Below, piece after piece: positions 9,834 to 26,531 of a stretch of DNA of 32,027 nt. Location: contig CAINQO010000102.1 in assembly GCA_903852325.1 (NCBI GenBank), positions 1 to 32,027 on the forward strand. The letters run 5' to 3'. Each line of letters starts with the position of its first letter. The stretch's first letter is position 1. This DNA comes from Candidatus Omnitrophota bacterium. GTDB taxonomy: Bacteria; Omnitrophota; Gorgyraeia; Gygaellales; Profunditerraquicolaceae. A program made the position numbers and the translations under genes. The notes beneath the pieces were generated by a model that was given only the letters and a program-made list of their open reading frames with translations, did no database searches and was not told the origin of the DNA.

Positions 9834-9966
9834 GGCTAAAGCCCGTAAAAAACAATACCTCCGATTGAGGATCCAAGAGATGATCTTTTGGCCGGTAAAT
9901 GCCGGGTATTTTGCCCGCCACCTTGATCCTGGCAGGGGCTTCCCTGGCTATCCTACATTCCCGCAT
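9826..9966 (-). CDS. Possible 46-residue protein in the only long gap of the operon
   Basis: From ATG at 9966 a frame of 46 codons runs to TAA at 9828-9826 (begins MRECRIAREAPARIK, ends LFFTGFSHE). It is too short for the ORF track. It has an AGAGG sequence six bases before its ATG, overlaps the last bases of the SGNH gene and overlaps the start of the methyltransferase gene. It thus fills the gap in the same tight way as the other genes. The codons look like those of its neighbours. I do not recognise a family. It could instead be chance open sequence or the remnant of a decayed gene. Confidence 0.3.
   Translation of the reverse strand: MRECRIAREAPARIKVAGKIPGIYRPKDHLLDPQSEVLFFTGFSHE
9834..9952 (-). 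other. Longest intergenic stretch (119 nt)
   Basis: This is the only gap above about 65 nt between the large genes. I find no TATAAT-like -10 box and no strong hairpin with a T-run in the direction of transcription. A GGAGG lies about 23 nt before the methyltransferase ATG, too far to serve it. The stretch is open in the frame of the proposed 46-residue ORF, which is the simplest account of it. Confidence 0.5.
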
Positions 9967-10657
9967 CACTGGCCTCTGGATTAATTTTTAACAAACTTTT
10001 GGCTAATCTGGGGGCAATGAAAATTAAACCCGTCCTTTTAAACAAACGGAAAAATCTGATCCTTGACACTTCGCTAGAATTAAGCTTGGGCAATAATTTA
10101 TTTTCAACAAGCAAAAAGGCTTTTTTCCCGCAATGGACACTCCCATCGCTTAACCGGGGATCGAACTGCCCGTCTCTTGCAGACAAAACATCTGTCAAAT
10201 CCAGCACCTTTATGCGATTATTCCCACAGTATAACTTCAAACCTTCATTAAGCAATCCGTTTATTTTAATCCTCTCTTCCAGCGAACCGTAAAAAGGAAA
10301 TTTGGGATTATACCCTTGATCAGTCGGTGGAACGACCAACTGCACGATGCAATCCAGGTTTCCGAATTTTCTTCGATAGCGCATAACGGCGTTGATATAA
10401 TTCGAACCAAGTGTTGCGATGATTTCATCCAGCCCCCTGCCGGCGTCTCTTTGTTTAACTATATGACAGCGCACGTCGATCTCGCCGAAAACAAAAAGCA
10501 CGGTATCTCCATCGCAGATACGGTATTTTTCGATATCGAACGAATCCACTCCATCCCTGCCCACCCGATGCATGGTTATCGGCCCTAAATGATGGCAAGA
10601 ATAGCAGGATGACCTTGAATAAACACCTACATGGCTGTCTCCTAATACATGGATCAT
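9953..10657 (-). CDS. SGNH/GDSL-like hydrolase-type protein of unknown substrate
   Basis: This 234-residue protein starts with IHVLGDSHVGVYS, which fits block I of the SGNH fold with the nucleophile serine in GDSH. It has VLFVFGEIDVRCHI in the place of block III (the usual N is replaced by E-I-D) and SDGSVHCG near residue 190, a D-x-x-H block V. The catalytic Ser, Asp and His are therefore plausible. No signal peptide is seen, so it is probably cytoplasmic. In polysaccharide loci such proteins act as acyl esterases or acyltransferase partners on sugars, but activity cannot be assigned here. Its ATG overlaps the rfbH stop as ATGA. The block III change means it could be a non-canonical family with another activity. 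Confidence 0.65.
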   Translation of the reverse strand: MIHVLGDSHVGVYSRSSCYSCHHLGPITMHRVGRDGVDSFDIEKYRICDGDTVLFVFGEIDVRCHIVKQRDAGRGLDEIIATLGSNYINAVMRYRRKFGNLDCIVQLVVPPTDQGYNPKFPFYGSLEERIKINGLLNEGLKLYCGNNRIKVLDLTDVLSARDGQFDPRLSDGSVHCGKKAFLLVENKLLPKLNSSEVSRIRFFRLFKRTGLIFIAPRLAKSLLKINPEASDAGM

Positions 10658-11976
10658 CTGTCACCAAACAGCTTTCCAAAGCCATGCAAAACATTTTCAA
10701 TATAATCCAGCATCGGACCGGTAATGCCCGGATAAACCCCGATCCAAAACAAATTACGCATCAATAAATCCGTATTCTTTAATCCCCCCGGCGCCCGGTA
10801 TTTTATATTCTTATATGCCGGCTGTTTCAGAAGATTGCCGCCGAAAAGCATCCGGGTGGCGATTTTATGCTTCTCCAGATAACCCACGATATCTCCCCTT
10901 TTAAACGGAGCATTTTCTTTCACCAGCACCGGAAAACCAAACCAGCTGGGGTCGGAATCTTTTTGGGCCAGCGGAAGAGCAAAATAATCTCCGTATCCTT
11001 TAAAAACATCGTGGAGGAAAGCGAAATTTTTCTTTCTGGCCCGGATAAAGGAGGCAAGTTTATCCATCTGGGCGCAGCCGATCGCCGCCTGCATTTCCGT
11101 GATCTTAAAATTATATCCGATATGCGAATAAACATACTTGTGGTCGTATCCGTACGGCAAATCCCCGATTTTTTGGCTGAATCTTTTTCCGCAGGCATTA
11201 TCCTCACCCGGAGCGCACCAGCAATCCCTGCCCCAGTCCCGCAAAGAGGTGATTATTTTTTTTAAAAGCAAACTGGAGGTTAACACTGCCCCGCCTTCAC
11301 CGGTAGTAATATGATGCGGCGGATAAAAACTACAGGTAGAGATATCCCCGAAGGAACCGGTATGCCGGCCTTTATATTTTGTGCCGAGGCTGTCGCAATT
11401 ATCCTCTATCCACCACAAATCATGCTTTTTGACGATTTTCCCGATCTTGTCGATATCTGCCGGGTTGCCTAAAGTGTGCGCGGTAAAAATGGCGCGTGTC
11501 TTTTTGCTCAGCGCCCTCTCGATCTTTTCCGCCGCGATATTGTAACTCTCCAGTTCCACATCCACGAATACCGGCACCAAGTTATTCTGCAGGATGGGGT
11601 TAAGGGTAGTCGGAAAACCGCAGGCGGTAGTGATCACCTCATCACCGGGACTCAGCTTCCTCATCTTCAATAACGGGGAGGTCAGCGCGCTTAAAGCCAA
11701 AAGGTTAGCCGAGGAACCGGAATTGGTTAAAAGGCAATATTTAACTTTTAAAAAGTCTGCCAGTTTTTCCTCAAATTCCCGGGCATAGCTTCCGCAGGTA
11801 AGCCAGAAATCCAGGGAAGCGCCGGACAACTTGATCAATTCCTTTTCATCATACACCCTGCCGGCATAAGGCACCGGGGTTTTGCCGGGCGCAAAAAGCT
11901 CACCGGATTTGCGGAGCGAATATAATTCCTTGATCCGGGAAAAAATCTCTTTTCTGATCTTGTTTTCTTTTTTCAT
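10654..11976 (-). CDS. rfbH: CDP-4-keto-6-deoxy-D-glucose-3-dehydrase (E1)
   Basis: This 440-residue member of the DegT superfamily has the hallmarks of the PMP/iron-sulfur dehydrase RfbH/AscC. The usual PLP lysine is replaced by histidine in SFYPPHHITTGEGGAV (His222). The [2Fe-2S] ligand motif C-X57-C-X-C-X7-C is exact (Cys194, Cys252, Cys254, Cys262 in GRDCWCAPGEDNACG). The enzyme removes the C3 hydroxyl of CDP-4-keto-6-deoxyglucose with electrons from a reductase (E3, RfbI/AscD) and gives CDP-3,6-dideoxy-4-ketoglucose. RfbF and RfbG, which make its substrate, are in the same operon about 13 kb upstream, but no E3 gene is visible. Its start overlaps the GT2 stop (TAATG) and its stop overlaps the SGNH start (ATGA). 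Confidence 0.95.
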   Translation of the reverse strand: MKKENKIRKEIFSRIKELYSLRKSGELFAPGKTPVPYAGRVYDEKELIKLSGASLDFWLTCGSYAREFEEKLADFLKVKYCLLTNSGSSANLLALSALTSPLLKMRKLSPGDEVITTACGFPTTLNPILQNNLVPVFVDVELESYNIAAEKIERALSKKTRAIFTAHTLGNPADIDKIGKIVKKHDLWWIEDNCDSLGTKYKGRHTGSFGDISTCSFYPPHHITTGEGGAVLTSSLLLKKIITSLRDWGRDCWCAPGEDNACGKRFSQKIGDLPYGYDHKYVYSHIGYNFKITEMQAAIGCAQMDKLASFIRARKKNFAFLHDVFKGYGDYFALPLAQKDSDPSWFGFPVLVKENAPFKRGDIVGYLEKHKIATRMLFGGNLLKQPAYKNIKYRAPGGLKNTDLLMRNLFWIGVYPGITGPMLDYIENVLHGFGKLFGDR

Positions 11977-12674
11977 TAACGTTGAAAAAATTTGATCTTA
12001 ATGATCATCCGGATCGCCGGCAGCATATCGGTAACCTTGATGGTCTTGCCTTCTTTATGCGTCCGGGGTTTATAATAAATAGGGATCTCCCCCATTTTAT
12101 AACCGTATTTACAAAGCTTGCTGAGCAGCTCGAAAGCATAAACCGGGCCGCTCCCCTTGCAGCCGAAATCCCTTTGCACTTTTGTTTTTATCAAATGGAT
12201 GCCGATCAAATCCGTAAACTTACGATTATACAGGGTATTCAATAAAAATGTAGCGATAATCGTCCCCAGCCAGAACGGCCTCTCTTTGATCAGGGAGAAT
12301 ACGGAAACTTTTTTTCTGCCTGCCAGGCGGGACCCGAACACCACATCCAGGTTTTCTTTCTCCATCTTTTCCAGCATCGGATAAACATCCGCCATCCGGT
12401 ATTCCCGGTCGGCTCCCGGGCCGAAAAAATAATCCCCCCGGGCAAGATTGATCGCTTCGGCGGAAGAATAGCCGATACCCATATTCTGCTCATGGAAAAT
12501 TATCCTTAGATTCTCTCTGGGCGCCAAACCCTTCAACAATTCCCGCGTCCCGTCAGTAGAACAATTATCCACGACAATTATCTCCTTGTCGATCTTTAGC
12601 GCTTCCGCTTCCTCGATCGCCGGCAGGATATTATTCTTTTCGTTAAAACATCCCAGGAATAACGTCAGTTTCAT
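11976..12674 (-). CDS. GT2 glycosyltransferase, DPM1-like
   Basis: This 232-residue GT-A protein has LTLFLGCFNEKNNILPAIEE, IIVVDNCSTDGTRELL and, at the usual DxD position, YFFGPGADREYRMADV. The C-terminal region with YKPRTHKEGKTI is the conserved element of polyprenyl-phosphate sugar synthases. The segment LGTIIATFLLNTLYNRKF is hydrophobic but the protein lacks the multi-helix tail of GtrB-like enzymes. It is the third protein of this subgroup in the window. The changed metal site (GADRE instead of DAD) suggests an altered donor. It overlaps rfbH by one base (TAATG) and FkbM by four bases (ATGA), so it belongs to the same translational unit as the deoxysugar genes. Confidence 0.85.
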   Translation of the reverse strand: MKLTLFLGCFNEKNNILPAIEEAEALKIDKEIIVVDNCSTDGTRELLKGLAPRENLRIIFHEQNMGIGYSSAEAINLARGDYFFGPGADREYRMADVYPMLEKMEKENLDVVFGSRLAGRKKVSVFSLIKERPFWLGTIIATFLLNTLYNRKFTDLIGIHLIKTKVQRDFGCKGSGPVYAFELLSKLCKYGYKMGEIPIYYKPRTHKEGKTIKVTDMLPAIRMIIKIKFFQR

Positions 12675-13609: not shown

Positions 13610-14668
13610 TTAGCCTTCCTTAGAAAGAAAACTTTTTATACAGCGCCGGAACCCTTCCTCTATCCCTACCCCGGGCCGGTATCCCAGCTTCTCTATCTTG
13701 GCGGTAGAAAGCGCCGGGCGCAACTTATCCTTATTTTCCAGATAGCCGGTGTTCTTTTTACGCTTTGCATAGATCACTTCCAATTTCTTTTCCGGGAAAA
13801 GCCCGGCGATTGAATCCGCCAACTCCCCGATAGAGATCCGGCACCGGTTATTGCTGACATTATAACTTTGACCGGCTTTGCCTTTCAATAAAACCCGGAA
13901 AAAACCGTCGGTGGCGTCGCTAAGATAACAGAATGTCCGCATTGCCCGTCCGTCGCTTTTAACCCGGAGGTTGCGGCCATCCACAACATCCCGGACAAAC
14001 TCGGCAAAAACCCGCTGATCATTCTTCAGATCCATCGTCGGCCCGTACGTATGGTCGGGGCGCACCGCAAAAGTAGGCACTCCGTACTGGCGAAACCAGG
14101 CCTGACACATATTTTCACCCATGCGCTTGCTTTCCCCGTAGCAGCTGCGCAAATCCGTGGGATCCAGGTAACCGGCGTCTTCTTCGGCCAGGATCTTTTT
14201 ATCCACCTTGCCGCAGACTTCCCCGCTGCTAAAAAATAAGAATCCTTTAGAGTTCTTTTCCCGGGCCAGCTCCAGCAGATTTTGGGTACCCAAAACATTC
14301 GGAAGGATAACTCCCACCGGATCCTGGGCAAAAAATTGGGAGCTTGCCGGGCTGGCGGCATGAATTATATAATCTACCGGCCCCTTTATCCGCAGTTTGC
14401 GGGTAATCTCCCGGCAGGCAAGCGCTAACCCCGGATTACCCAGGAATTCCGCGAACCGCTTCCTGGCTTTAGTCATACTCCGGGCCAAAGCGATCACCTT
14501 AATGTTTAATTCCGGAAACAGAACGTTGAGCTGCAGCAGCGTAAACACCATGTATGACGCAAGCATTCCGTTGCTGCCGGTGATCAGAATGGTGGAGTTT
14601 TTTAATTTTCCCCAATCCAGGCGTGCCGCGCAGATATTTTTTAAATCTTCCCTGATGATCTCATTCAT
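13610..14668 (-). CDS. NAD-dependent epimerase/dehydratase (extended SDR) acting on a nucleotide sugar
   Basis: This 352-residue extended SDR has the Rossmann motif TILITGSNGMLASYMVFTLL, YIIHAASPASSQFF, the catalytic serine segment LFFSSGEVCGK and the YxxxK pair in CYGESKRMGEN. The sequence AVRPDHTYGPTMDLKNDQRV and the C-terminal KLGYRPGVGIEEGFRRCIK are standard for nucleotide-sugar epimerases, dehydratases and UDP-xylose synthases. About 25 residues before the Rossmann fold (EDLKNICAARLDWGKLKNS) mark a subgroup often found in capsule loci and annotated only as NAD-dependent epimerase. It sits in the segment with rfbH, so it is a candidate 4-ketoreductase or epimerase for the CDP-sugar, but this is inference. 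It overlaps the methyltransferase gene upstream by 8 nt. Confidence 0.88.
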   Translation of the reverse strand: MNEIIREDLKNICAARLDWGKLKNSTILITGSNGMLASYMVFTLLQLNVLFPELNIKVIALARSMTKARKRFAEFLGNPGLALACREITRKLRIKGPVDYIIHAASPASSQFFAQDPVGVILPNVLGTQNLLELAREKNSKGFLFFSSGEVCGKVDKKILAEEDAGYLDPTDLRSCYGESKRMGENMCQAWFRQYGVPTFAVRPDHTYGPTMDLKNDQRVFAEFVRDVVDGRNLRVKSDGRAMRTFCYLSDATDGFFRVLLKGKAGQSYNVSNNRCRISIGELADSIAGLFPEKKLEVIYAKRKKNTGYLENKDKLRPALSTAKIEKLGYRPGVGIEEGFRRCIKSFLSKEG

Positions 14669-16829: not shown

Positions 16830-17330
16830 TTAAATGTATTTGCGGTAATGCTTCCTGTGATATTTAATTAAATTATCCGGGCACCCCTCGTGCCACCTAA
16901 GGAACCCGGGATCTTTTGCGCTCAATCCTTTATTTTTCGGGATGAATGTTGACGGAAGACGGCACTGATATAAAACCGAAACAAAATGGCTCCTGTTTTT
17001 CAAATCCGGATGAATGAGTTGGGTAATCGCCAGGGGCAAAGGGTCGAATTTGATTTTTGCGCCGATCTCATTTTGCGCCACCTTGTTTATCCTTTGCTCC
17101 AAAGTTTCCCGGAAACGGACGATCCCGCCGGGGATATGCCAGCCCCGGCCGCAATAAACGTCATCCCTCCAGGCTAAAAGGGTGCGCCCCCGCTCATCCT
17201 TGATCAAAAGGTCGACATTGACCAAAGGCAGCAGGCGGCTCACAAAATAAAACAACTCCAGCGGCAACCCTTTAGCGGGGTCAGGCACTTTTTTTTCCAG
17301 AAATTTTACCGCTGCGCAGATGCTCTTCAT
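16830..17330 (-). CDS. Nudix hydrolase, GDP-mannose mannosyl hydrolase (Gmm)-like
   Basis: This 166-residue protein contains a Nudix fold with a degenerate box: GGIVRFRETLEQRINKVAQNEIG. The first G and the following E are kept (G69, E75), but the central R-E is K-V and the first E of E-E is N. The same kind of departure is known in Gmm (GDP-mannose mannosyl hydrolase), which also shares GxGWxxPGG before the box; here it reads YCGRGWHIPGG. Gmm cuts GDP-mannose to GDP and mannose by attack on the sugar carbon, and ManC in this window provides GDP-mannose. The gene sits between two radical SAM genes with gaps of 2 and 7 nt. It may act on another NDP-sugar made in this operon. Confidence is good for Nudix and moderate for Gmm-like. 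Confidence 0.85.
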   Translation of the reverse strand: MKSICAAVKFLEKKVPDPAKGLPLELFYFVSRLLPLVNVDLLIKDERGRTLLAWRDDVYCGRGWHIPGGIVRFRETLEQRINKVAQNEIGAKIKFDPLPLAITQLIHPDLKNRSHFVSVLYQCRLPSTFIPKNKGLSAKDPGFLRWHEGCPDNLIKYHRKHYRKYI

Positions 17331-17337
17331 TTACAAT

Positions 17338-18987
17338 TTACTCCAGCGCAGGCAGATTGAACTGCTTTGCATAGGCTTTCCAAAACCCGGAATCCCCGAT
17401 GATTTCCAAATACTTGGATTTATACGCCCAGTATTTATCTTCCTGGCGCATCAGGCGGCAGCATTTGGCGGCAAAATAATAGGCAAAGGCGTGGTCATTT
17501 TTAACCCGGATCGTATTTTCAAATCCTTTCAGAGCGGTAGCGTAATTGCCGGAGTTCAGGTCGTTATTTCCCACAAAATTAAGCTCCAGGTTTAAGCGGT
17601 AGGCTTCTTCCTGAATATATTCGGCTTTAAAATCTTCGGTCTCGATCACCGCCCTTTTAAAATCCGCGCGCAGATAATCCCCTTTTAGATAATTTTTTTT
17701 GACGCAAATATCAAACATTTCGCTGCCGGCTAAGGGGGTAGCCACGCTGATCCTGAACCAGTTGGCGTTAAGGGTTTTTAAGAAAGCCCTCGTGTCTTCG
17801 ATGTCCTGTTTGGTTTCTCCGGGGAGCCCGATGAGGATCGCAATATCGGAAGCGATCCCCAGCTGGCGGCAGTCATCAACAACGCGTTTTACGGTGGAAA
17901 GGTCAAGCGGTTTGTGCATGATCTCCTTTAATACCCGGTTGCTCCCTGACTCCGCGGACAAAACCAGGTTCTCCACTCCGATACTTTTGAGCGCCGCAAG
18001 CATCTCCCGGTCCAGCGCGTAAAGCGCTAAAGATGACGGAAAAAAAGCGGTTAAACGCAATTCTTTCATCAACGCGATTATCGCATAAACCCTTTGCTTA
18101 TCCGCCATAAAATGGTCGTCGAAAAAAACGATCACTTCTGCCCCGTATTCCCTTTTAAGACGCTCGAGGTCCTCTTTGATCCGGTGCAGGCTGTAATAAC
18201 GCATTTGCCGGCCGTGCACGGTATGCGAATCGCAAAAACAGCAGCGGTGCGGGCAGCCCCGGGAGGTCAACATCGGCATGCTTATTTTTTTTGCCTGGGC
18301 CAGGGGGAATAAAGACAAAAGCGGATTGGAGGCATAATCCTGCGGATCAAGAAGATCAAAAGGCAAAAACGGTATGGCATCGAGATTTTCGATAAAATCA
18401 TTACAGAATGCGCCGCCGGTTTGGTATTTTTCTTTGGTCACCCAGGCCGGGTTTTCCTTTAAAAAAATATCTTTGTTTTCGGCCTGCACCAGTCCCAGCA
18501 AAGGTTTTTCCCCTTCTCCGTAACAAAGCGCATCGATCGCACCGCTGTTGCGGAATATTTCCTTGTGCATATTGGTCGCCACCCCTCCTCCGGCGGTGAG
18601 TAAAGCGCGGGGAAAAGTTATCCTGGCGGCCTCTGCCAGATCCAACAGGTTGCAGTATGAAGAACTGAATAATGCGGAAATCCCGATTATCTCCGGGGCA
18701 TAATCGAGCAATTCTTTGGCGCCCAGGTATTCGCGGTATAGATCCATAAAAGAACTATAGGTGAAATTTTCCAGCTTATTTAAGATGACGTTGAAATCGA
18801 GAAGCTTTATCCGGACCTGAGCGTTATTCTGCAGATAGGCGCTCAGGGAAAGCAGCCCCAGGGGCATGTCGCTGACCAGGCTGCCGTATTCCCCGGTTTT
18901 CTTGGCTACTTTGCGTTCATTAAAAGCCGGCCGGACAAAATTATCGAAATTTATATTCGGAGGAACAAGGAAAAGGATTTTTTCCAT
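17338..18987 (-). CDS. B12-binding-domain radical SAM protein with TPR-like tail
   Basis: This 549-residue protein has an N-terminal cobalamin-binding-type domain (LFLVPPNINFDNF to ALCYGEGEKPLLGLV, about residues 1-170) without a clear DxHxxG motif. Next comes a radical SAM domain with CPHRCCFC (Cys245, Cys249, Cys252) and the elements VIVFFDDHFM, NLVLSAESGSNRVLKEI and IAILIGLPGETKQDIEDT. The last 80 residues (GNYATALKGFENTIRVKNDH) look like a tetratricopeptide repeat pair, which may bind a partner protein. Class B-type enzymes of this layout perform methylation of unactivated carbons, ring contractions or similar chemistry. In a glycan locus it may C-methylate or rearrange a sugar or the lipid carrier. 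The start overlaps the upstream radical SAM stop by one base (TAATG). Confidence 0.92.
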   Translation of the reverse strand: MEKILFLVPPNINFDNFVRPAFNERKVAKKTGEYGSLVSDMPLGLLSLSAYLQNNAQVRIKLLDFNVILNKLENFTYSSFMDLYREYLGAKELLDYAPEIIGISALFSSSYCNLLDLAEAARITFPRALLTAGGGVATNMHKEIFRNSGAIDALCYGEGEKPLLGLVQAENKDIFLKENPAWVTKEKYQTGGAFCNDFIENLDAIPFLPFDLLDPQDYASNPLLSLFPLAQAKKISMPMLTSRGCPHRCCFCDSHTVHGRQMRYYSLHRIKEDLERLKREYGAEVIVFFDDHFMADKQRVYAIIALMKELRLTAFFPSSLALYALDREMLAALKSIGVENLVLSAESGSNRVLKEIMHKPLDLSTVKRVVDDCRQLGIASDIAILIGLPGETKQDIEDTRAFLKTLNANWFRISVATPLAGSEMFDICVKKNYLKGDYLRADFKRAVIETEDFKAEYIQEEAYRLNLELNFVGNNDLNSGNYATALKGFENTIRVKNDHAFAYYFAAKCCRLMRQEDKYWAYKSKYLEIIGDSGFWKAYAKQFNLPALE

Positions 18988-20072
18988 TAGGCTTTATGCT
19001 GAAACGGTTTCCGGGTGCGGTCCTCAGCCTTAAAAACTTCCGCGCAAGGCACCGGCAGCGGTTTATTATAAACTCTACCGGCGATATATTTATTGATAAA
19101 ATCCCTGTCCTGGGCGATCAGACAGGTATCCACCTGTTCCCCGAAATATTTGATCTTTAAACCCCGGCGGATGATCTTTTTCAAGGACTCCTTAAAAACA
19201 TTGCCGATCGAAACATGGATATAGGGGCAGGGCAGGACATCCCCGTACTGGGTGACCGAAAACATCCCTTTGACCGCGATGCAGCCCATCTCCAGGCCGT
19301 AAGCCGGGGTTAAATGCGTGAACACCTGGTGTTTCTTCTCCAGCCTTTTCATATACCGCATATCTTTTTTGTCCACCAAGCCGCTAAAATCATTCTCCCA
19401 GGCGCCGACAGGCTTAGCGTAAGTCACAAACACCCCGATCCCCTTCCCGTTGAAATATTTGAGGAAGCGGATAAATTCCCGCGAATGCAGCCTTTGTTTG
19501 GTCACCACCGTCTGGATAAAGATCTTTAAACCGGCACCCCTGGCCGCATCCACCGCTTTTATCGCCCGGGCAAAAGACCCCGGAGCCCGGCGGAAGGCAT
19601 CATGCTCAGCCGGATTCAAACTGTCCAGGCTCAACTGGATCCTGTCTACCCCGATACTTTTTAGATGCCGGGCCCTCTTTTCGTCTAAAAACCAGCCGTT
19701 CGTATCGCAATTGATATAAAACTTTTTCGGGCCGATTGCCTTGACCAGCGCGTCGAAATCTTTAAATACCAGCGGCTCACCGCCGGTGATGGTCACCCGC
19801 GCCAGCCCTAAGGCATCCGCCTGGGCAAACAACTTTTTAACATCGGCAATCGTGAAAGAGCGGGCGGCTTTTTTCCCCTGGAACCCCTTGACCGAACAAT
19901 GCCGGCAGCGGAAATTACAATTATAATTATACTGGAACTGGATGATCGCGATGCTCTCGCCGCGTTTAAATTTTTCCTCAAACTTTACGATCTTTTTATA
20001 CACGTAAGGCTTTTCGGACCTTAATTGATCGCGTCGGCTGAGCTCTTCGGATTTTAATTTTGCAGCGGCCAT
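18987..20072 (-). CDS. Radical SAM protein with four-cysteine C-terminal extension
   Basis: This 361-residue protein has the radical SAM motif CNFRCRHC (Cys52, Cys56, Cys59), TITGGEPLVFKDF, INCDTNGWFLD and RIQLSLDSLNPAEHDAFR. The C-terminal portion has cysteines in LEMGCIAVKG, GDVLPCPYIHVSIGN, VDTCLIAQ and PVPCAEVFK. This resembles the auxiliary-cluster part of SPASM or twitch proteins. The N-terminal 45 residues are charged and helical. Together with the B12 radical SAM gene that follows by a one-base overlap, it seems to belong to a multi-step radical route. The substrate is unknown. The ATG at 20072 is preceded by an AGGAAAAGAA-type ribosome-binding site in the 23-nt gap after the ThDP enzyme gene. 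Confidence 0.92.
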   Translation of the reverse strand: MAAAKLKSEELSRRDQLRSEKPYVYKKIVKFEEKFKRGESIAIIQFQYNYNCNFRCRHCSVKGFQGKKAARSFTIADVKKLFAQADALGLARVTITGGEPLVFKDFDALVKAIGPKKFYINCDTNGWFLDEKRARHLKSIGVDRIQLSLDSLNPAEHDAFRRAPGSFARAIKAVDAARGAGLKIFIQTVVTKQRLHSREFIRFLKYFNGKGIGVFVTYAKPVGAWENDFSGLVDKKDMRYMKRLEKKHQVFTHLTPAYGLEMGCIAVKGMFSVTQYGDVLPCPYIHVSIGNVFKESLKKIIRRGLKIKYFGEQVDTCLIAQDRDFINKYIAGRVYNKPLPVPCAEVFKAEDRTRKPFQHKA

Positions 20073-20095: not shown

Positions 20096-21883
20096 TTAAA
20101 GTCGGCGGAACATGTTTGCTTTAAATTCTTTCCTGGGCAGAGGAGGCCAAAGGTCTTCCATCGGCAGCGATACCATCCGGCCGTCCGGCATGACCCGGGA
20201 GGTGACCCGCGGCTGCGTGGCTAAATCCGGATCGACCATCACTTCGCAGAGTACCGGCCCGGAACTCTTGAGCACGGCTTTGATCTTCCCTTTCATTTCC
20301 GCCTGGTTATTGATCCTGACCGCCTTTAAACCGTAAGCCTTGGCGATTTTTTGCGTATCCGGCAGGCTCAGGCCGCTGGAGGGATCGCAGGCCACCTTCC
20401 TGCCGTTAAAATACCGGTTTTGCGTGGAGCGGATCGAAGCGTAAGCGTTATTATTTAAGACAAACAGCTTAACCGGCAGCTTATAGCGTTTCAACAGCTC
20501 GAGTTCCTGAAGATTATGCTGTAACCCGCCGTCTCCGATCAGGCAAATCACCATTTTTTTACCGCTGGCAAAACAAGCTCCGATGCTGGCCGGAAGGCCG
20601 AACCCCATTGCCCCCAAGCCGGGAGAATTAAATATCCGTTGCCCGGACTTAACCTTAAACGCCTGCAAGGTTATCTCGCTGCAGCTTCCGGAACTCCCGG
20701 GGACGATCACGTCTTTTGCGCTCAATAATTGCGATAGCGTTTCCACCAAGGCATAGGTATTCACCGGTTTTTTCTGCCGGAAATATTCCTGCGGCACCAC
20801 CGGATATTTATTTTTCCATTCCCGGCAGGTCTTCAGCCAGGCGCGGGCATCCACCTTAACCGCTTTGATCCTGGCTAAAAAAGCGCCCAGGAACTCTTCT
20901 GCGCCAAGATTAAAAGCAATATCGATTTTGGTATTTATTTTTCTGATCTCATGGATATCGATATCCACAATCGCTTTTTTAGCCCCTTTAGCGAAATTTT
21001 CATAACTAAAAGCGGATTGCCCTGAATCAAGCCTGGCGCCGATACAAATGATCAGGTCGGCATTCTGCTGGGTAAAATTCGCCCCCCTTTGCCCGACTGA
21101 TCCGGGCCGGCCGGCATACAAAGGATCATCTTCTTCCAGGATATCCGCTGCCCGCCAGGTAAGTAAGACCGGCGCTCCGATTTTAGCGGCTATCTTCTTA
21201 AAAACACCGATCCCTTCCTTGCTCCTTATTCCGTTACCGATTAAAAAAACCGGCCTGCGGGATTGATTGAGCAGATTAATGAGGCGGGTGATCTTTTGAG
21301 ATAAGTTTTTATCCCGGATGGAATGCTTGGACTGATGAAAATTTTCTAATTTCTTTTCATTGATCAACGCCCCCTGCACGTCCAAAGGGATGTCGATCCA
21401 CACCGGACCCGGCCTGCCTTCTTTAGCCAGATAAACCGCTTTATCCAGGTGAAATTTTATTGCTTGCGGATCCATTACCGTTACCGCATATTTTGTAACC
21501 GGCTTAACCAGGGAAACGATATCCACTTCCTGGGGGCCCATTTGCCTGACCCCCTTACCCTTAAGCATATCCGCTCTTTTTACCTGCCCGGAAATGATCA
21601 GTACCGGGACCGAATCGATCCAGGAAGCCGCAACCCCGGTGATCGCGTTTGTACCGCCCGGGCCGGTAGTGACTAACGCTGCCCCCAGATTACCGGTATA
21701 CTGGCTGTAAGCGTCGGCGCAAATAGCGCTGGCCTGTTCATGCAGGTTAGCGACAAAAACCAGGTTTTTATTTTTACCTAAAGAATCTACCAGGTGCATG
21801 CAGCCTCCGCCGGGAAGCATAAAAACATGTTTTATCCCCAAGCGGGAGACATACCGCATCACATAGTCGGAAAGTTTGATCAT
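20096..21883 (-). CDS. Acetolactate-synthase-like ThDP-dependent enzyme (possible YerE-type branched-sugar enzyme)
   Basis: This 595-residue protein has all three domains of the AHAS/IlvB family. The N-terminal PYR domain contains the catalytic glutamate in NLHEQASAICADAY (Glu49) and VTTGPGGTNAITGV. A central domain carries VFLIGNGIRSK and LIICIGARLDS. The C-terminal PP domain has the ThDP motif GDGG at 450-453 and NNN at 474-476. The C-terminal end PRVTSRVMPDGRMVSLPMED is unlike housekeeping AHAS. No small regulatory subunit gene is nearby. In loci with CDP-3,6-dideoxy-4-ketoglucose enzymes, an enzyme of this type (YerE) adds a two-carbon unit from pyruvate to C4 of the sugar. RfbF, RfbG and RfbH are all here, so that role is plausible but not proven. 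The start overlaps the HAD gene as ATGA. Confidence 0.88.
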   Translation of the reverse strand: MIKLSDYVMRYVSRLGIKHVFMLPGGGCMHLVDSLGKNKNLVFVANLHEQASAICADAYSQYTGNLGAALVTTGPGGTNAITGVAASWIDSVPVLIISGQVKRADMLKGKGVRQMGPQEVDIVSLVKPVTKYAVTVMDPQAIKFHLDKAVYLAKEGRPGPVWIDIPLDVQGALINEKKLENFHQSKHSIRDKNLSQKITRLINLLNQSRRPVFLIGNGIRSKEGIGVFKKIAAKIGAPVLLTWRAADILEEDDPLYAGRPGSVGQRGANFTQQNADLIICIGARLDSGQSAFSYENFAKGAKKAIVDIDIHEIRKINTKIDIAFNLGAEEFLGAFLARIKAVKVDARAWLKTCREWKNKYPVVPQEYFRQKKPVNTYALVETLSQLLSAKDVIVPGSSGSCSEITLQAFKVKSGQRIFNSPGLGAMGFGLPASIGACFASGKKMVICLIGDGGLQHNLQELELLKRYKLPVKLFVLNNNAYASIRSTQNRYFNGRKVACDPSSGLSLPDTQKIAKAYGLKAVRINNQAEMKGKIKAVLKSSGPVLCEVMVDPDLATQPRVTSRVMPDGRMVSLPMEDLWPPLPRKEFKANMFRRL

Positions 21884-22461
21884 AGTATTTTATTTATTTG
21901 CGCCAAGGTTTCTTTAACGGACAGCTTGCTTTTATTCCAGGGCTTAGCGACCAGGATCCCTTTGATCCCTTTTTCCTGTGCCTGAAGGATATTCTCCTGG
22001 CTATCTTCGATAAGCAGGTCGACTTTACCCAGCCATTCCAGGTAATCGGCTTTTGTCCGGCCGTAATCGGGGATATCCTCACCGGGGCGCGGCGAAGGCA
22101 CAAAATTAAAACTCCTGATCCATTTGCCGAAATTCCGCATTACCCATTCAGCGGAGATGTGCGCCGCCTTTGCGGGAACCGCGGTTAAAACAATATGCCG
22201 GGCTTTATCCCCGTTGGCGGAAAACCAATCCATTACCTGCGCGTCCGGGGCCAATTTAAAATAAGCCCCGGATAACCGGTAATCATCCAGGGATTTCCGG
22301 TATTCTTCCCTAGTTACGCCGATTATCTTTTCCGGGGTATTCTCGGTAATCTGCGCAAAAGCTATTTTTAATCCGGGATGCCCGGGAAGCCACTTATCCT
22401 CAAGCCAGCGGCGCATCAGGTCATTCAAGATATCGTCAACATCCCAGGCAATGGTTATCAT
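21880..22461 (-). CDS. HAD-like phosphatase (small, cytosolic)
   Basis: This protein of about 193 residues carries the HAD motifs in order: TIAWDVDDILNDL (motif I, nucleophile Asp and acid Asp), HIVLTAVPAKAA (motif II), RTKADYLEW (motif III lysine) and VDLLIEDSQENILQAQEKG (motif IV). The helical cap between motifs I and II resembles the type C (5'-nucleotidase-like) group. It probably removes a phosphate from a small sugar phosphate or nucleotide. It lies directly between the NeuB-cupin and ThDP genes, so a sugar-9-phosphate or similar intermediate is a reasonable substrate. The ORF track uses TTG at 22467; ATG at 22461 (MITIAWDVDD) fits the family better. It ends in an ATGA overlap with the ThDP gene. 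Confidence 0.85.
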   Translation of the reverse strand: MITIAWDVDDILNDLMRRWLEDKWLPGHPGLKIAFAQITENTPEKIIGVTREEYRKSLDDYRLSGAYFKLAPDAQVMDWFSANGDKARHIVLTAVPAKAAHISAEWVMRNFGKWIRSFNFVPSPRPGEDIPDYGRTKADYLEWLGKVDLLIEDSQENILQAQEKGIKGILVAKPWNKSKLSVKETLAQINKIL

Positions 22462-22477
22462 TTCCAATCAAACGGAT

Positions 22478-24007
22478 CTATTTTATCGACTCGCGCAGCC
22501 AATCAAGCCGGAAGGTCATTTCCGTCTTTCTCTCTTTATTCTTTAGTATTGTTTTATCGGCATAGAAAGAATCATCCGGGTAATGCGTCGTGGAAACCTC
22601 CTCGAAAATTACCCCTTCCCGGGAAGAAAAATCATGTTCCTTTTCGCGCTCCACGGTAAGCATGCTGCCGGCCTTAAGCAGCTTCTTCTCTTTGCCGATA
22701 GTTACCCCCAAAGTTCCGTACAGAACCTGGAAAGTTTCTTCTTTCCTGCGGTGATAATGCAGCGGATGCTTTTGCCCGGGAAGTAGGATGATCAGTTTTT
22801 TGCAATATTCCCGGTTAACGCAGTTAAGGATCGCCGCCCCCCATTGCCTGTATTTATCGATGCCGTAATGATGGCTCAACTCCAGGTCGATCTTTTCCGG
22901 TAAAGCGATCTGGCTTTTTATGATCAATTCTTTTAACTCTTTAATGATCTGCAGGACCTTTTGGCGTAAATTCCTTACTTTTAAATCTTTTAAATTAACG
23001 GCGGCCCCGGACTTTAAATTCCTGCTCACCGTATATTCCGTGTATTTAGAAAGGTCATTGGCCAGCAGCTGCCCTGCCGAGCAGGGGATGGCCAGAAAAA
23101 TATTCTCTTTGTTTAATTTTTCCCCGGGTTTTAAATCCTTTTTGGCAAATACCCCTCTTTTTAAACCCCGTAAATCGCTTTTCTCTTCGGGGGTGGCCGG
23201 ATAACGCCCCAGACAGCTGCCTTGCATCCGGTAGGTATCCCGGGCGGCCTGCAGCCATTTATCGACCTGCCCGGGCAATGAAGAATAAGCGTTAACCGGG
23301 TATTTTTTCGACTCGACCGCAACGTGCCTTTCAAAAACAGAGCCCCCCTTAGCGATAGCGACTCTTATGGAATCCGCGTTCTCCGGTTCCTCGTGTGTGG
23401 AAAACCCGACCGCGATTTCCGGGTAACGTTGTTTCAATAAATCGATCTGGTTTAAAAACAGGCGCTCTTTTTTTGTCGGATACTCTCCCACGCAATGCAT
23501 CAGGCAAAAGTTTTTATGGCGATGCTGCAAAAACGTCACCACCTGGTCGATCTGTTCCAGGGAAGCTCCGGCGCAGGAAGCGATCAGCGGCAGTTCGGTC
23601 CGGGCGATCCGCTCCAAAAGCGGCCAATCCGTAAAAGAACAGCTGCCGATCTTAAGCGCGCTAAAGCCGTGCTTTTCCGCCAGTTCCACGGAGCCCTCAT
23701 CAAAGGGGGTGCAAACCGCGAGAAACCCGGCCCGAGTAATCTCATCTTTCAACGCTTTTAATTCCCCCGGGCTTAAGCGGGTTTCCTCGAAACGCTTGAT
23801 ATACTTGATATCTTTTCTACCTTTGTAATCCGGATGGATAAAAGTATCCAGCTGCCGGTATTGCAATTTAAAAGCGAACCGGAAATTATATTTTTTGCAG
23901 ACTTTAGCAATCTCCCGGATAATGCTTTTACCGTGCCCGACATCCCCGCCGTGGTTATTCGCCAGGTCAAAAATAAATAATTTCTCAAAGATGGGCATTT
24001 TATCCAT
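22478..24007 (-). CDS. NeuB-family 3-deoxy-sugar-acid synthase fused to SAF and cupin domains
   Basis: This 509-residue protein has three parts. The NeuB aldolase domain (about residues 8-265) shows DLANNHGG, FKLQYRQLDTF (Lys47, Gln49), CTPFDEGSVEL, ALKIGSCSFTDWPLLE (Lys119), MHCVGEYPT and metal histidines in GFSTHEEP (His205) and FERHVAVE (His228). A SAF domain follows (about 285-345, GVFAKKDLKPGEKL). A C-terminal cupin holds HPLHYHRRKEETF (His417, His419, Glu424). NeuB enzymes join phosphoenolpyruvate to an aldose. Here GYSDHT is changed to GFSTHE, and the usual TG motif is SCAG, so it is a divergent branch. No CMP-sugar synthetase or 2-epimerase gene is near. The cupin may isomerise or sense the sugar. 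Product unknown. Confidence 0.87.
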   Translation of the reverse strand: MDKMPIFEKLFIFDLANNHGGDVGHGKSIIREIAKVCKKYNFRFAFKLQYRQLDTFIHPDYKGRKDIKYIKRFEETRLSPGELKALKDEITRAGFLAVCTPFDEGSVELAEKHGFSALKIGSCSFTDWPLLERIARTELPLIASCAGASLEQIDQVVTFLQHRHKNFCLMHCVGEYPTKKERLFLNQIDLLKQRYPEIAVGFSTHEEPENADSIRVAIAKGGSVFERHVAVESKKYPVNAYSSLPGQVDKWLQAARDTYRMQGSCLGRYPATPEEKSDLRGLKRGVFAKKDLKPGEKLNKENIFLAIPCSAGQLLANDLSKYTEYTVSRNLKSGAAVNLKDLKVRNLRQKVLQIIKELKELIIKSQIALPEKIDLELSHHYGIDKYRQWGAAILNCVNREYCKKLIILLPGQKHPLHYHRRKEETFQVLYGTLGVTIGKEKKLLKAGSMLTVEREKEHDFSSREGVIFEEVSTTHYPDDSFYADKTILKNKERKTEMTFRLDWLRESIK

Positions 24008-24017
24008 TAGTCCCTCA

Positions 24018-24758
24018 TTATATTTTAACCGTAAGCCCGTCCCGGGCGACCCGCGTGCGCTTAAAGATCACGCGCGCGGATCTTTCCGCTTTTTTTATTT
24101 CCGTTAAACGCGGGTAAGCGCCGGAATCAAAATGCGCCAGAAACAATTGCTTAACTTTCGCTTTTTTAGCGATTACAGCCGCCTGCTGAGGATTAAGGTG
24201 CGGCCAGCGGTTATCGACCTTGCCCGGAGGCAGGGAACATTCGGTGATCAAAACATCCGCGCCCGCGGCCAAAGCTTCAAAGTTTTTACAGGGGCCGGTA
24301 TCCGTGCAAAAAGCCAGGCGCTTATTTTCAGCCGTGATCCTGTATCCGTAACACACCCCGACATGGCGGAGCCGGCGGGATTCGATCTCTACCGGAAGTT
24401 TTGACCGCGGGGAAAATTCATTGATCGTTAACCTGGTTTTCAGCTGCTTTACCGGCATAGAATAAGGATCATTGATGAGTGTGGAAAATAATTTCTTTAC
24501 TCCGGGAGGGCCGAAAACTTTTATCCCCTGGGGGAAGGAAAACTTTGCCAAAGCGTGCAGGCCGCTGATATGATCCAGGTGAAAATGGCTGAACAATAGG
24601 ATGACCGGCTTATTTTCTTTGATATACCGGTCGAGCTTGTAAAATCCTCCTCCGGCGTCAAAAACAATGTAGGCTTTTTCGGTATCTACCAGGACACAAA
24701 GCGTATTGCCCAGCTCCGAATCAAACCAGCCCATGGTCCCTAGAAAATGGATTTTCAT
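24018..24758 (-). CDS. Metallo-beta-lactamase-fold hydrolase (RNase Z/phosphodiesterase-like)
   Basis: This 246-residue protein has the MBL metal site LLFSHFHLDHISGLHALA (HxHxDH), a further histidine and aspartates in FCTDTGPCKNFEAL and a late histidine in LFLAHFDSGAYP. The starting strand MKIHFLGTMGWFDSELGNTLC, with the substrate loop between the first strands, looks like RNase Z/ElaC-type and phosphonate-phosphodiesterase-type members. The protein is cytoplasmic. MBL proteins in sugar loci can cleave cyclic phosphates or phosphodiesters, but no substrate is evident. It lies between rfbG (ATGA overlap) and the NeuB-cupin gene (10-nt gap), so it probably belongs to the same pathway. Confidence 0.88.
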   Translation of the reverse strand: MKIHFLGTMGWFDSELGNTLCVLVDTEKAYIVFDAGGGFYKLDRYIKENKPVILLFSHFHLDHISGLHALAKFSFPQGIKVFGPPGVKKLFSTLINDPYSMPVKQLKTRLTINEFSPRSKLPVEIESRRLRHVGVCYGYRITAENKRLAFCTDTGPCKNFEALAAGADVLITECSLPPGKVDNRWPHLNPQQAAVIAKKAKVKQLFLAHFDSGAYPRLTEIKKAERSARVIFKRTRVARDGLTVKI

Positions 24759-25747
24759 GATTTTGAAGAAAAATAATTAAAATACCATTGCGCGGCCGCT
24801 TTTAAACCGTGCTCCAGATCATAAACCGGCCTCCATCCCAGAACCCGGCCGGCCTTGTGCGCGGATAAATATTGCCTGCGGATCTCGTATTTTGCCGTAT
24901 TCATAATTTTATATTTAAGCGGGCGGGTACATAAATTAAGCCGGTTTATTTTTTGCAACAGTTGGATTACCGTTACCGGGCGCTGATCGCTTAAATTGAA
25001 CGCTTCCCCGCAAAGCCGTTTCCGCTTGAATAATTCGGCGGCGCGCAGATAACCGTCGATAATGTCGGAGATATAAACATAATCGCGCACGTATTTTCCG
25101 TCACTGCGCACCGGCAGGATATTACCCTTCACCCGGCAGCGCAGTGCATCCGGGATCAGGCGGCTGAAATTAAAATCCCCGGGGCCGTAAATATTCCCGC
25201 AACGGATAATGGTTACCGGAAGGCCGTAAGTATGGGCATAAGTGCCAGCGATCAGGTCTGCGCAGCTTTTGGAAACATCATACGGGTGATTGGCCAGCAA
25301 AGGATCGGTTTCCAGGTAGGGAAGTTTTTTGCCTGCCCCGTAAGCCTTATCGCTTGAAGCAACGATCAATGCCTGTAAACCCGGCAGTTCCCGGCAGGCA
25401 TCTAAGATTTCCCAGCTCCCGGCGATATTGGAGGTAAATGCCGCAAGCGGATTCTCCCGGCTCCTGCCGACAATCGATTCTGCGGCCAGATGAAAAATCA
25501 CCTGCGGCGGATGCTTACGTAAAATACCGCGGACAAACGCGCCGCTGGCAACACTGCCCTGATAAACCTTTATCCGCTTATAATCATCAGGACAAAGAAT
25601 GGTTTCTTTGCGCAAGGTCTTGATGTCCAGGCCGGTCACCCTGGCCCCGTAACCGGTAAGGGCCTTGGTCAAATGCGAACCGACAAACCCTTCAAAACCG
25701 GTAACCAGGACTTTTTTCTCTTTCCAGAATCGCTTGCGGTCAACCAT
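24755..25747 (-). CDS. rfbG: CDP-glucose 4,6-dehydratase
   Basis: This extended SDR of about 330 residues matches RfbG. The N-terminus is MVDRKRFWKEKKVLVTG with GFEGFVGSHL as the Rossmann glycine motif. It has VIFHLAAESIVGRS, the serine-threonine-like VASSDKAYGAG, the YxxxK pair in HPYDVSKSCADL and IRCGNIYGPGDFNFSRLIPD, all typical of the family. It converts CDP-glucose to CDP-4-keto-6-deoxyglucose with bound NAD. The ORF track starts at a TTG (25807) inside rfbF; ATG at 25747 gives the usual length and sits 7 nt after the rfbF stop. Its product is the substrate of RfbH in this same operon. Confidence 0.95.
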   Translation of the reverse strand: MVDRKRFWKEKKVLVTGFEGFVGSHLTKALTGYGARVTGLDIKTLRKETILCPDDYKRIKVYQGSVASGAFVRGILRKHPPQVIFHLAAESIVGRSRENPLAAFTSNIAGSWEILDACRELPGLQALIVASSDKAYGAGKKLPYLETDPLLANHPYDVSKSCADLIAGTYAHTYGLPVTIIRCGNIYGPGDFNFSRLIPDALRCRVKGNILPVRSDGKYVRDYVYISDIIDGYLRAAELFKRKRLCGEAFNLSDQRPVTVIQLLQKINRLNLCTRPLKYKIMNTAKYEIRRQYLSAHKAGRVLGWRPVYDLEHGLKAAAQWYFNYFSSKS

Positions 25748-25754
25748 AATTAAA

Positions 25755-26531
25755 CTACCAGACTTTCCACGGGATATTTCCGGATTGCCAGATTTTTTCC
25801 AGCTCAAGCTTGTCCCGGAGAGTATCCATGTAGGCCCAAAAACCTTTGTGTTTATATGCGCCTAACTTGCCTTCCTTGGCCAGGCTCTCCAAAGGCTCCC
25901 TTTCCCAAACCGTCGCGTCCCCTTCGGTGATAAAATCAAGAACAGACGGCTCCAGAACAAAAAAACCGCCGTTAATCCAGCTGTTTTCTCCTTTCGGCTT
26001 CTCCAGAAAAGAAGAAACTTTTCCCGCAGCGGTTAAATCCAGCACCCCGAACCTTCCGGCGCTTTGCACCGCGGTAAGGGTAGCCGGCTGCCTGCCTTTA
26101 TTATGGAATTCCACCAATTTTTTTATATTGATATCGGAAAGGCCGTCACCGTAAGTCAAGAGAAAAGTCTCCTGGCCGATGTATTTTTTTACCCGCTTCA
26201 GCCTGCCGCCGGTCATCGTTTCCAAGCCGGTATCCACTAAAGTGATCTTCCATGGTTCCGAAGCAGTGGTATGGATCTGCATCTGGTTGTTTTTTGAAAG
26301 ATCGATGGTGACATCGCTCATGTGCATAAAATAGTGCGAAAAATATTCCTTGATCATATACCCTCGGTAACCCAGGCAAATGATAAAATCGTTAAAGCCG
26401 TAATGGGAATACAGCTTCATGATGTGCCAGATTACCGGTTTACCGCCGATCTCGATCATCGGCTTGGGCAAAACCTCTGTTTCTTCGCTGATCCTTGTGC
26501 CTCTTCCTCCGGCCAAAATAACTACCTTCAT
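25755..26531 (-). CDS. rfbF: Glucose-1-phosphate cytidylyltransferase
   Basis: This 258-residue protein is the size of RfbF and has VVILAGGRGTRISEETEVLP with the pyrophosphorylase core, KPMIEIGGKPVIWHIMKLYS, and the RfbF-specific DFIICLGYRGYMIKEYF and FLTYGDGLSDIN. It makes CDP-glucose from CTP and glucose-1-phosphate, the first step of the CDP-3,6-dideoxyhexose route. The end GAYKHKGFWAYMDTLRDK is also typical. It lies one base after the ligase-like gene and just before rfbG, the standard rfbF-rfbG order. Confidence 0.96.
   Translation of the reverse strand: MKVVILAGGRGTRISEETEVLPKPMIEIGGKPVIWHIMKLYSHYGFNDFIICLGYRGYMIKEYFSHYFMHMSDVTIDLSKNNQMQIHTTASEPWKITLVDTGLETMTGGRLKRVKKYIGQETFLLTYGDGLSDINIKKLVEFHNKGRQPATLTAVQSAGRFGVLDLTAAGKVSSFLEKPKGENSWINGGFFVLEPSVLDFITEGDATVWEREPLESLAKEGKLGAYKHKGFWAYMDTLRDKLELEKIWQSGNIPWKVW

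Follow-up and report, generated by a model that had tools for sequence, protein, structure and literature searches.

The closest described systems to the locus presented here are the YerE, ErwE and JanthE pathways, which lead to the branched sugars yersiniose, erwiniose, caryophyllose and gastriose. What they share with it are the genes rfbF, rfbG and rfbH for a 4-keto-3,6-dideoxyhexose bound to cytidine diphosphate (CDP), and a YerE-like carboligase dependent on thiamine diphosphate (ThDP). The acceptor of both YerE and ErwE is this CDP-4-keto-3,6-dideoxyhexose; YerE itself uses pyruvate as the donor, while ErwE does not accept pyruvate and favours 4-hydroxy-2-oxo acids, a preference similar to that of MMAR_2332 of the caryophyllose pathway (PMC12247030). 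Mutation of either MMAR_2331 or MMAR_2332 in M. marinum halts the pathway ahead of caryophyllose (PMC5706390). For JanthE, the physiological substrates were stated as unidentified (PMC12188165). No enzyme supplying a long 2-keto acid donor for YerE-like enzymes is named in the literature searched. Here, we focus on a stretch of 32,027 nucleotides (nt) from an Omnitrophota genome (GCA_903852325.1, contig CAINQO010000102.1, positions 1-32,027; hereafter, the window), in which the gene of a YerE-like carboligase lies close to one encoding a NeuB-type synthase, a SAF domain and a cupin in a single chain. We consider it likely that this NeuB-SAF-cupin fusion, together with a phosphatase of the haloacid dehalogenase (HAD) superfamily, makes a long 2-keto acid which would serve as the donor for the neighbouring ThDP enzyme, acting on a CDP-4-keto sugar.

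ThDP enzymes that form branches are already known, as are NeuB folds; what may be new is the link of a NeuB-cupin donor synthase to long-branched CDP-sugars, which was not found in the literature searched, although a NeuB role may have been proposed earlier in work outside that search. Unlike the yersiniose pathway, where pyruvate is the donor and no donor-making enzyme is needed, this locus has the NeuB-cupin fusion and often a HAD gene as fixed neighbours. With the NeuB, PseI and LegI synthases (PDB 1xuu, 8h2c) the fusion shares the TIM barrel and SAF domain, the Lys and Ser of the phosphoenolpyruvate (PEP) site and two metal-binding His residues, but it scores low on the equivalog models, its acceptor-side residues are changed, a cupin is fused to it, and NeuA and NeuC are missing. 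The order of steps proposed here, in which an isomerase is followed by PEP condensation with an aldose phosphate and then by a dephosphorylating HAD enzyme, is that of the route to 3-deoxy-D-manno-oct-2-ulosonic acid (Kdo)-8-phosphate by KdsD, KdsA and KdsC. The protein families are different, however, the isomerase is here fused to the synthase, and the product would be decarboxylated onto a CDP-sugar rather than activated with cytidine monophosphate (CMP). Finally, the cupin D-lyxose isomerases (2y0o of B. subtilis; Z5688) appear to share the fold and most metal and Glu positions with the cupin half, which here is covalently joined to a PEP-dependent synthase.

Gene Order and Its Conservation

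The genes of interest form a block on the minus strand, read in the order rfbF, rfbG, a metallo-beta-lactamase (MBL)-fold gene, the NeuB-SAF-cupin fusion, the HAD gene, the ThDP gene and two radical S-adenosylmethionine (SAM) genes, with overlaps or gaps of a few bases between them (Table 1). An original prediction, made from the letters of the DNA, had described a NeuB fused to a cupin, with an MBL gene before it and a HAD gene after it, between rfbG and the ThDP gene. This arrangement was borne out by the open reading frames at 24758-21880 on the minus strand and by Pfam matches for NeuB, Cupin_2 and the MBL fold. The neighbour it had called rfbG does have CDP-glucose 4,6-dehydratase as its top match, yet with 192 bits it stays under the NCBIfam cutoff of 278.

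A scan of GTDB genomes gave at least 575 relatives of the fusion. For the best 80, those most similar to the window protein, neighbouring genes were scored using profiles made from the proteins of the window. As a control, 20 neighbourhoods of canonical NeuB genes were used, all from the class of the window. Judged by their titles, the 80 relatives span more than 20 phyla of bacteria and archaea, most being metagenome-assembled genomes (MAGs); cultured carriers of the fusion include Mycobacterium szulgai DSM 44166 and Methylophaga sulfidovorans DSM 11578. A search of plasmids for the fusion at 1e-20 gave no match. The co-occurrence check which the original prediction had proposed placed a ThDP gene no more than 10 kb from the fusion at 72 of the 80 loci, compared to none of the 20 controls (Fisher p 6e-15). 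Of the 68 loci with scores for both genes, 67 have ThDP and NeuB on one strand, and 58 have less than 700 bases between them. Among the same 80 loci, rfbF was found in 50 and the HAD gene in 32 (each 0/20 in the controls), rfbG in 51 and rfbH in 50, while NeuA has the reverse distribution (2/80 versus 15/20). The most common order is rfbF-rfbG-rfbH-NeuB-(HAD)-ThDP. From the four-gene cassette that had been postulated between rfbG and the ThDP gene, the NeuB-cupin/ThDP core is therefore well kept and the HAD gene recurs in part, but the MBL gene drops out, passing the profile threshold in just 4 of 80 related loci (it is also present in several Omnitrophota). Rather than a separate cassette, the set would be the section of a pathway to a branched CDP-sugar that provides the donor.

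The source genome, an Omnitrophota MAG of 1.63 Mb that is 94.6% complete, has one NeuB. As the original prediction had stated, the usual nonulosonate genes are missing, with neither NeuA nor NeuC in the window. A neuA-like gene elsewhere in the genome, named there as one sign of an ordinary nonulosonate route, was not found either: the sole CTP_transf_3 protein of this 94.6% complete genome is KdsB. Nor was a NeuC-type 2-epimerase of uridine diphosphate sugars found in it above the cutoff, the best Epimerase_2 score being 20 bits against a cutoff of 30.6. A synthase of the DAHP/KdsA type adjoins KdsB on contig C35 and is KdsA by position; this pair is separate from the genes of the window.

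The NeuB-Cupin Fusion

The synthase half of the fusion, a TIM barrel followed by the SAF domain, takes up about residues 1-346, with the Pfam NeuB match at 46-264 (128 bits, cutoff 22). In the PDB sequence search, 3g8r was matched with 364 bits. The AlphaFold2 (AF2) model of the fusion has a predicted local distance difference test score (pLDDT) of 93.7, and for its barrel-SAF part Foldseek ranked 3g8r first (template modelling score TMt 0.97), then NeuB and PseI, with KDO8P synthases listed too. Residues K119, S122, S144, H205 and H228 are invariant in 75 aligned sequences of the fusion family, and we take their counterparts in SiaC to be the PEP and metal residues. The position of R314 in SiaC, the SAF arginine, is mostly I or F in these sequences. 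By its fold and PEP/metal residues the protein belongs to the NeuB superfamily, and a PEP-dependent condensing activity is predicted from its sequence. The changed motifs that had been pointed out earlier, GFSTHE and SCAG, are both there; STHE typifies the entire family, but SCAG turned out to be just a minor variant of the usual STAG. An identity as Kdo-8-phosphate synthase is disfavoured, as the KdsA-type synthase already lies beside KdsB.

The protein behind 3g8r, a structural genomics entry from Chromobacterium violaceum named 'SpsE', is 49% identical over the NeuB-SAF part and belongs to the same subfamily, but unlike the window fusion, the crystallised chain lacks a cupin. The name SpsE is probably a misnomer, and a text search of the literature on 3g8r found no function.

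The cupin half covers about residues 370-499 (Pfam Cupin_2 at 406-463). Its best matches, by sequence and by fold, indicate that it resembles the D-lyxose/L-ribose isomerases: the top sequence match is the D-lyxose isomerase 2y0o (E 2.3e-8), and with the cupin part of the AF2 model, Foldseek found 2y0o (TMt 0.68, root-mean-square deviation 2.2) and other sugar isomerases. H419, E424, H458, E469 and E470 are invariant in the 75 sequences. At four loci, two from Omnitrophota and two from Mycobacterium, a NeuB protein without the cupin is encoded beside or near a ThDP gene; a further search of the phylum for such loci returned just the two Omnitrophota already found. A HAD gene was recognised at none of these four loci, compared to seven of nine fusion loci from the same set, with four cases being too few for a test. 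Perhaps the cupin-less NeuBs take a free aldehyde. In the two Mycobacterium genomes (L167, L168), the shorter cupin-less NeuB is beside the ThDP gene, rfbF and rfbH are close, and no HAD was recognised nearby.

The ThDP Carboligase

Against the PDB, the ThDP enzyme matched JanthE (8rph) with 387 bits and 5ahk, which we take to be PpYerE, with 298 bits, while acetolactate synthases reached at most 241 bits; the NCBIfam cutoff for acetolactate synthase was not reached. A tree was rooted on the acetolactate synthase encoded by the same genome, with the JanthE and 5ahk sequences taken from alignments. In this tree 5ahk branches first, followed by JanthE as the sister of the NeuB-linked ThDP enzymes, which form one clade (support 0.88/0.82). 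By sequence, the window enzyme groups with YerE-like carboligases and not with acetolactate synthase, and the gene context predicts a CDP-4-keto sugar as its acceptor. A housekeeping acetolactate synthase was ruled out, as the genome has a separate one (contig C92). In a locus of an uncultured archaeon (L034), a second ThDP gene (10594-12375) groups with 5ahk and not with the NeuB-linked enzymes, as though this locus made two kinds of branch.

The HAD Phosphatase

The HAD protein of the window has no Pfam match over the cutoff; NT5C is matched by 23 of its 32 orthologues. The motifs D8-x-D10 (DVDD), T94, K138 and D154 are conserved in the 32 orthologues, and with the AF2 model (pLDDT 96.5) the best Foldseek hit was 3bwv, among deoxyribonucleotidases. 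Its motifs on a Rossmann core make it a HAD phosphatase, and catalysis is predicted from sequence and model. A TTG at 22467 is a possible alternative start. In addition to the 32 loci with this orthologue, 15 others have a HAD of a different type (DxDGT), and the two types never occur together (p 2e-4). At 11 of these 15 loci the DxDGT gene directly adjoins that of NeuB or of the ThDP enzyme, and two DxDGT proteins that were scanned are like phosphoglycolate phosphatase, below the cutoff. With two types excluding each other in what would be a single role, it appears that dephosphorylation is needed. In three other mycobacteria (L074, L169, L170), the cupin fusion is accompanied by a DxDGT-type HAD.

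A Proposed Pathway to Long-Branched CDP-Sugars

In the pathway we propose, the cupin domain would interconvert a ketose and an aldose, or their phosphates, and the NeuB domain would join the aldose with PEP to form a 3-deoxy-2-ulosonic acid, or its phosphate. The HAD enzyme would then take off the phosphate. RfbF, RfbG and RfbH, all encoded in the window (RfbF and RfbH above their cutoffs, RfbG as a top match below it), would provide the route to CDP-4-keto-3,6-dideoxyhexose. The ThDP enzyme would decarboxylate the ulosonic acid and add the remaining acyl chain to C4 of this keto sugar. The predicted product is a CDP-sugar with a long, hydroxylated 2'-deoxy branch, of the kind found in caryophyllose, gastriose and erwiniose, which a short-chain dehydrogenase/reductase (SDR) would probably reduce afterwards. 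A CMP-sugar synthetase would not be needed in this pathway because the acid is consumed by the decarboxylative coupling. A Kdo-like start whose acid is spent as an acyl donor would thus explain the missing NeuA and NeuC, the presence of RfbF, RfbG and RfbH and the constant ThDP neighbour all at once. The original prediction had offered either a 3-deoxy sugar acid of an unusual aldose or a carbon unit for the CDP-sugar as the product; the evidence favours both together, with the acid being the carbon unit.

The branch chemistry bears on this proposal. Condensation of PEP with an aldehyde yields a 4-hydroxy-2-oxo acid whose C3 is a CH2. If the ThDP enzyme removes CO2 from this product and transfers the rest, C2' of the branch must be a CH2 and C3' must carry a hydroxyl. 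The branch of erwiniose, which is 1,3-dihydroxybutyl, and that of gastriose, which is 1,3-dimethoxy-4,5,6,7-tetrahydroxyheptyl, agree with this pattern. Caryophyllose is 3,6-dideoxy-4-C-(D-altro-1,3,4,5-tetrahydroxyhexyl)-D-xylo-hexose (PMC5706390), and the CH2 at C2' of its branch fits the place where the PEP-derived carbon would fall. The preference of ErwE and MMAR_2332 for 4-hydroxy-2-oxo acids is counted as support because a PEP-condensing synthase makes exactly such acids.

If true, the proposal would account for the origin of the long side chains on branched surface sugars, the acid being fused onto another sugar instead of being displayed like sialic acid. The link of NeuB-cupin and HAD gives a testable answer on the source of the donor and predicts branch chemistry from a genome. 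It also reassigns proteins that resemble sialic acid or spore coat synthases in organisms without the rest of the sialic acid route. On the wider claim, our judgement is evenly divided: the fusion may represent a general, widespread bacterial and archaeal route to branched sugars of C10 and larger, in which a bifunctional aldose isomerase/PEP-dependent ulosonate synthase makes an acid that is coupled decarboxylatively and without CMP activation.

Alternative Explanations

The presence of both enzymes in one polysaccharide locus could also mean that two separate sugars are made. The 3-deoxy-ulosonic acid, Kdo- or nonulosonate-like, would then become a glycan residue after activation by KdsB or another CMP-synthetase, with the ThDP enzyme independently forming a pyruvate-branched, yersiniose-like CDP-sugar. 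Several pathways do often share one sugar locus, pyruvate is the donor used by YerE, and the genome has KdsB with its adjacent KdsA-type synthase. However, independent sugars would need no pairing, while NeuB and ThDP genes form tight pairs, read in one direction, across more than 20 phyla; the NeuB-linked ThDP enzymes are a distinct clade, and NeuA-type genes are as scarce at fusion loci as they are common in the controls. We regard two separate sugars as improbable. Far more remote is an ordinary sialic, legionaminic or pseudaminic acid synthase with a decorative cupin, to which we give next to no credence. The Pfam NeuB match and weak matches to TIGR03569 and TIGR03586 agree with such an enzyme, but the latter reach 125 and 110 bits versus cutoffs of 400 and 340, the SAF arginine position is mostly hydrophobic, and the neighbours are unlike those of canonical NeuB loci. 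With NeuA and NeuC missing as well, this identity was rejected.

It could also be that the pathway is the one proposed with some steps assigned differently. In this case the cupin would epimerise or isomerise the branch, or would serve in regulation, and the HAD enzyme would act on another phosphate, such as that of a nucleotide or of the aldose before condensation. The four cupin-less loci imply that some products can be made without a cupin, and the HAD fold is nucleotidase-like. Set against this are the match of the cupin to sugar isomerases in both sequence and fold, its invariant metal and Glu residues, and the lack of a recognised HAD at the cupin-less loci, as if cupin and phosphatase served one phosphorylated substrate. 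The chance that these roles are different we hold to be slight. Several points weigh against the proposal that NeuB-cupin and HAD supply the donor of the ThDP enzyme. H417 of the cupin, a presumed metal ligand, is replaced by Q in 24 of 75 sequences and is not strictly kept; about 40% of the 80 loci lack a recognised HAD of either type; and the MBL protein has no place in the scheme. Similarity to the window protein decided which 80 loci, mostly from MAGs, were used, while the control comes from a single class and the NeuA profile was seeded from control loci. The loci share ancestry and whole clusters were likely transferred laterally, so that the p-values overstate the association. Furthermore, we know of no glycan structure for any of the fusion-bearing organisms found.

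Other Genes in the Window

Table 1. Coordinates of the main features in the window (nt positions) and the matches that identify them.
Feature	Position	Strand	Evidence
RfbF, glucose-1-phosphate cytidylyltransferase	25755..26531	-	NCBIfam TIGR02623, 421 bits (cutoff 300)
RfbG-type CDP-glucose 4,6-dehydratase (SDR)	24755..25807	-	TIGR02622 as top match, 192 bits, under the NCBIfam cutoff (278)
MBL-fold hydrolase (RNase Z/PhnP-like), accessory	24018..24758 (246 aa)	-	Pfam Lactamase_B_2; NCBIfam RNase Z and PhnP models under cutoff
NeuB-SAF-cupin fusion, PEP-dependent ulosonate synthase type	22478..24007 (509 aa)	-	Pfam NeuB and Cupin_2
HAD-superfamily phosphatase, 5'(3')-deoxyribonucleotidase fold	21880..22461 (from ATG)	-	Motifs; NT5C in orthologues; Foldseek
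YerE-like ThDP carboligase	20096..21883	-	Three Pfam ThDP domains; PDB JanthE 8rph, 387 bits
Radical SAM/SPASM protein	18987..20072	-	Recurs near the NeuB-ThDP core in 38/80 related loci
SDR, candidate reductase of the branch ketone	13610..14668	-	NCBIfam dTDP-glucose 4,6-dehydratase-like, under cutoff
RfbH, CDP-4-keto-6-deoxyglucose 3-dehydrase	10654..11976	-	NCBIfam RfbH, 683 bits (cutoff 423)

RfbH, which the original prediction had not named, carries the motifs HHITTGEGG, with His at the position of the Lys that binds pyridoxal phosphate, and CWCAPGEDNAC. Positions 9953-10657 encode a protein of 234 aa with a GDSL/SGNH-like look and no NCBIfam match. Homologues of the candidate SDR are present in many related loci. 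Two genes besides that of the radical SAM/SPASM protein recur near the NeuB-ThDP core: that of a B12-binding radical SAM protein (17338-18987) in 15 of the 80 related loci and that of a Nudix protein (16830-17330) in 31. The radical SAM/SPASM protein could possibly act in a later modification of the sugar, and the recurrence of all three genes suggests that a further sugar modification is conserved.

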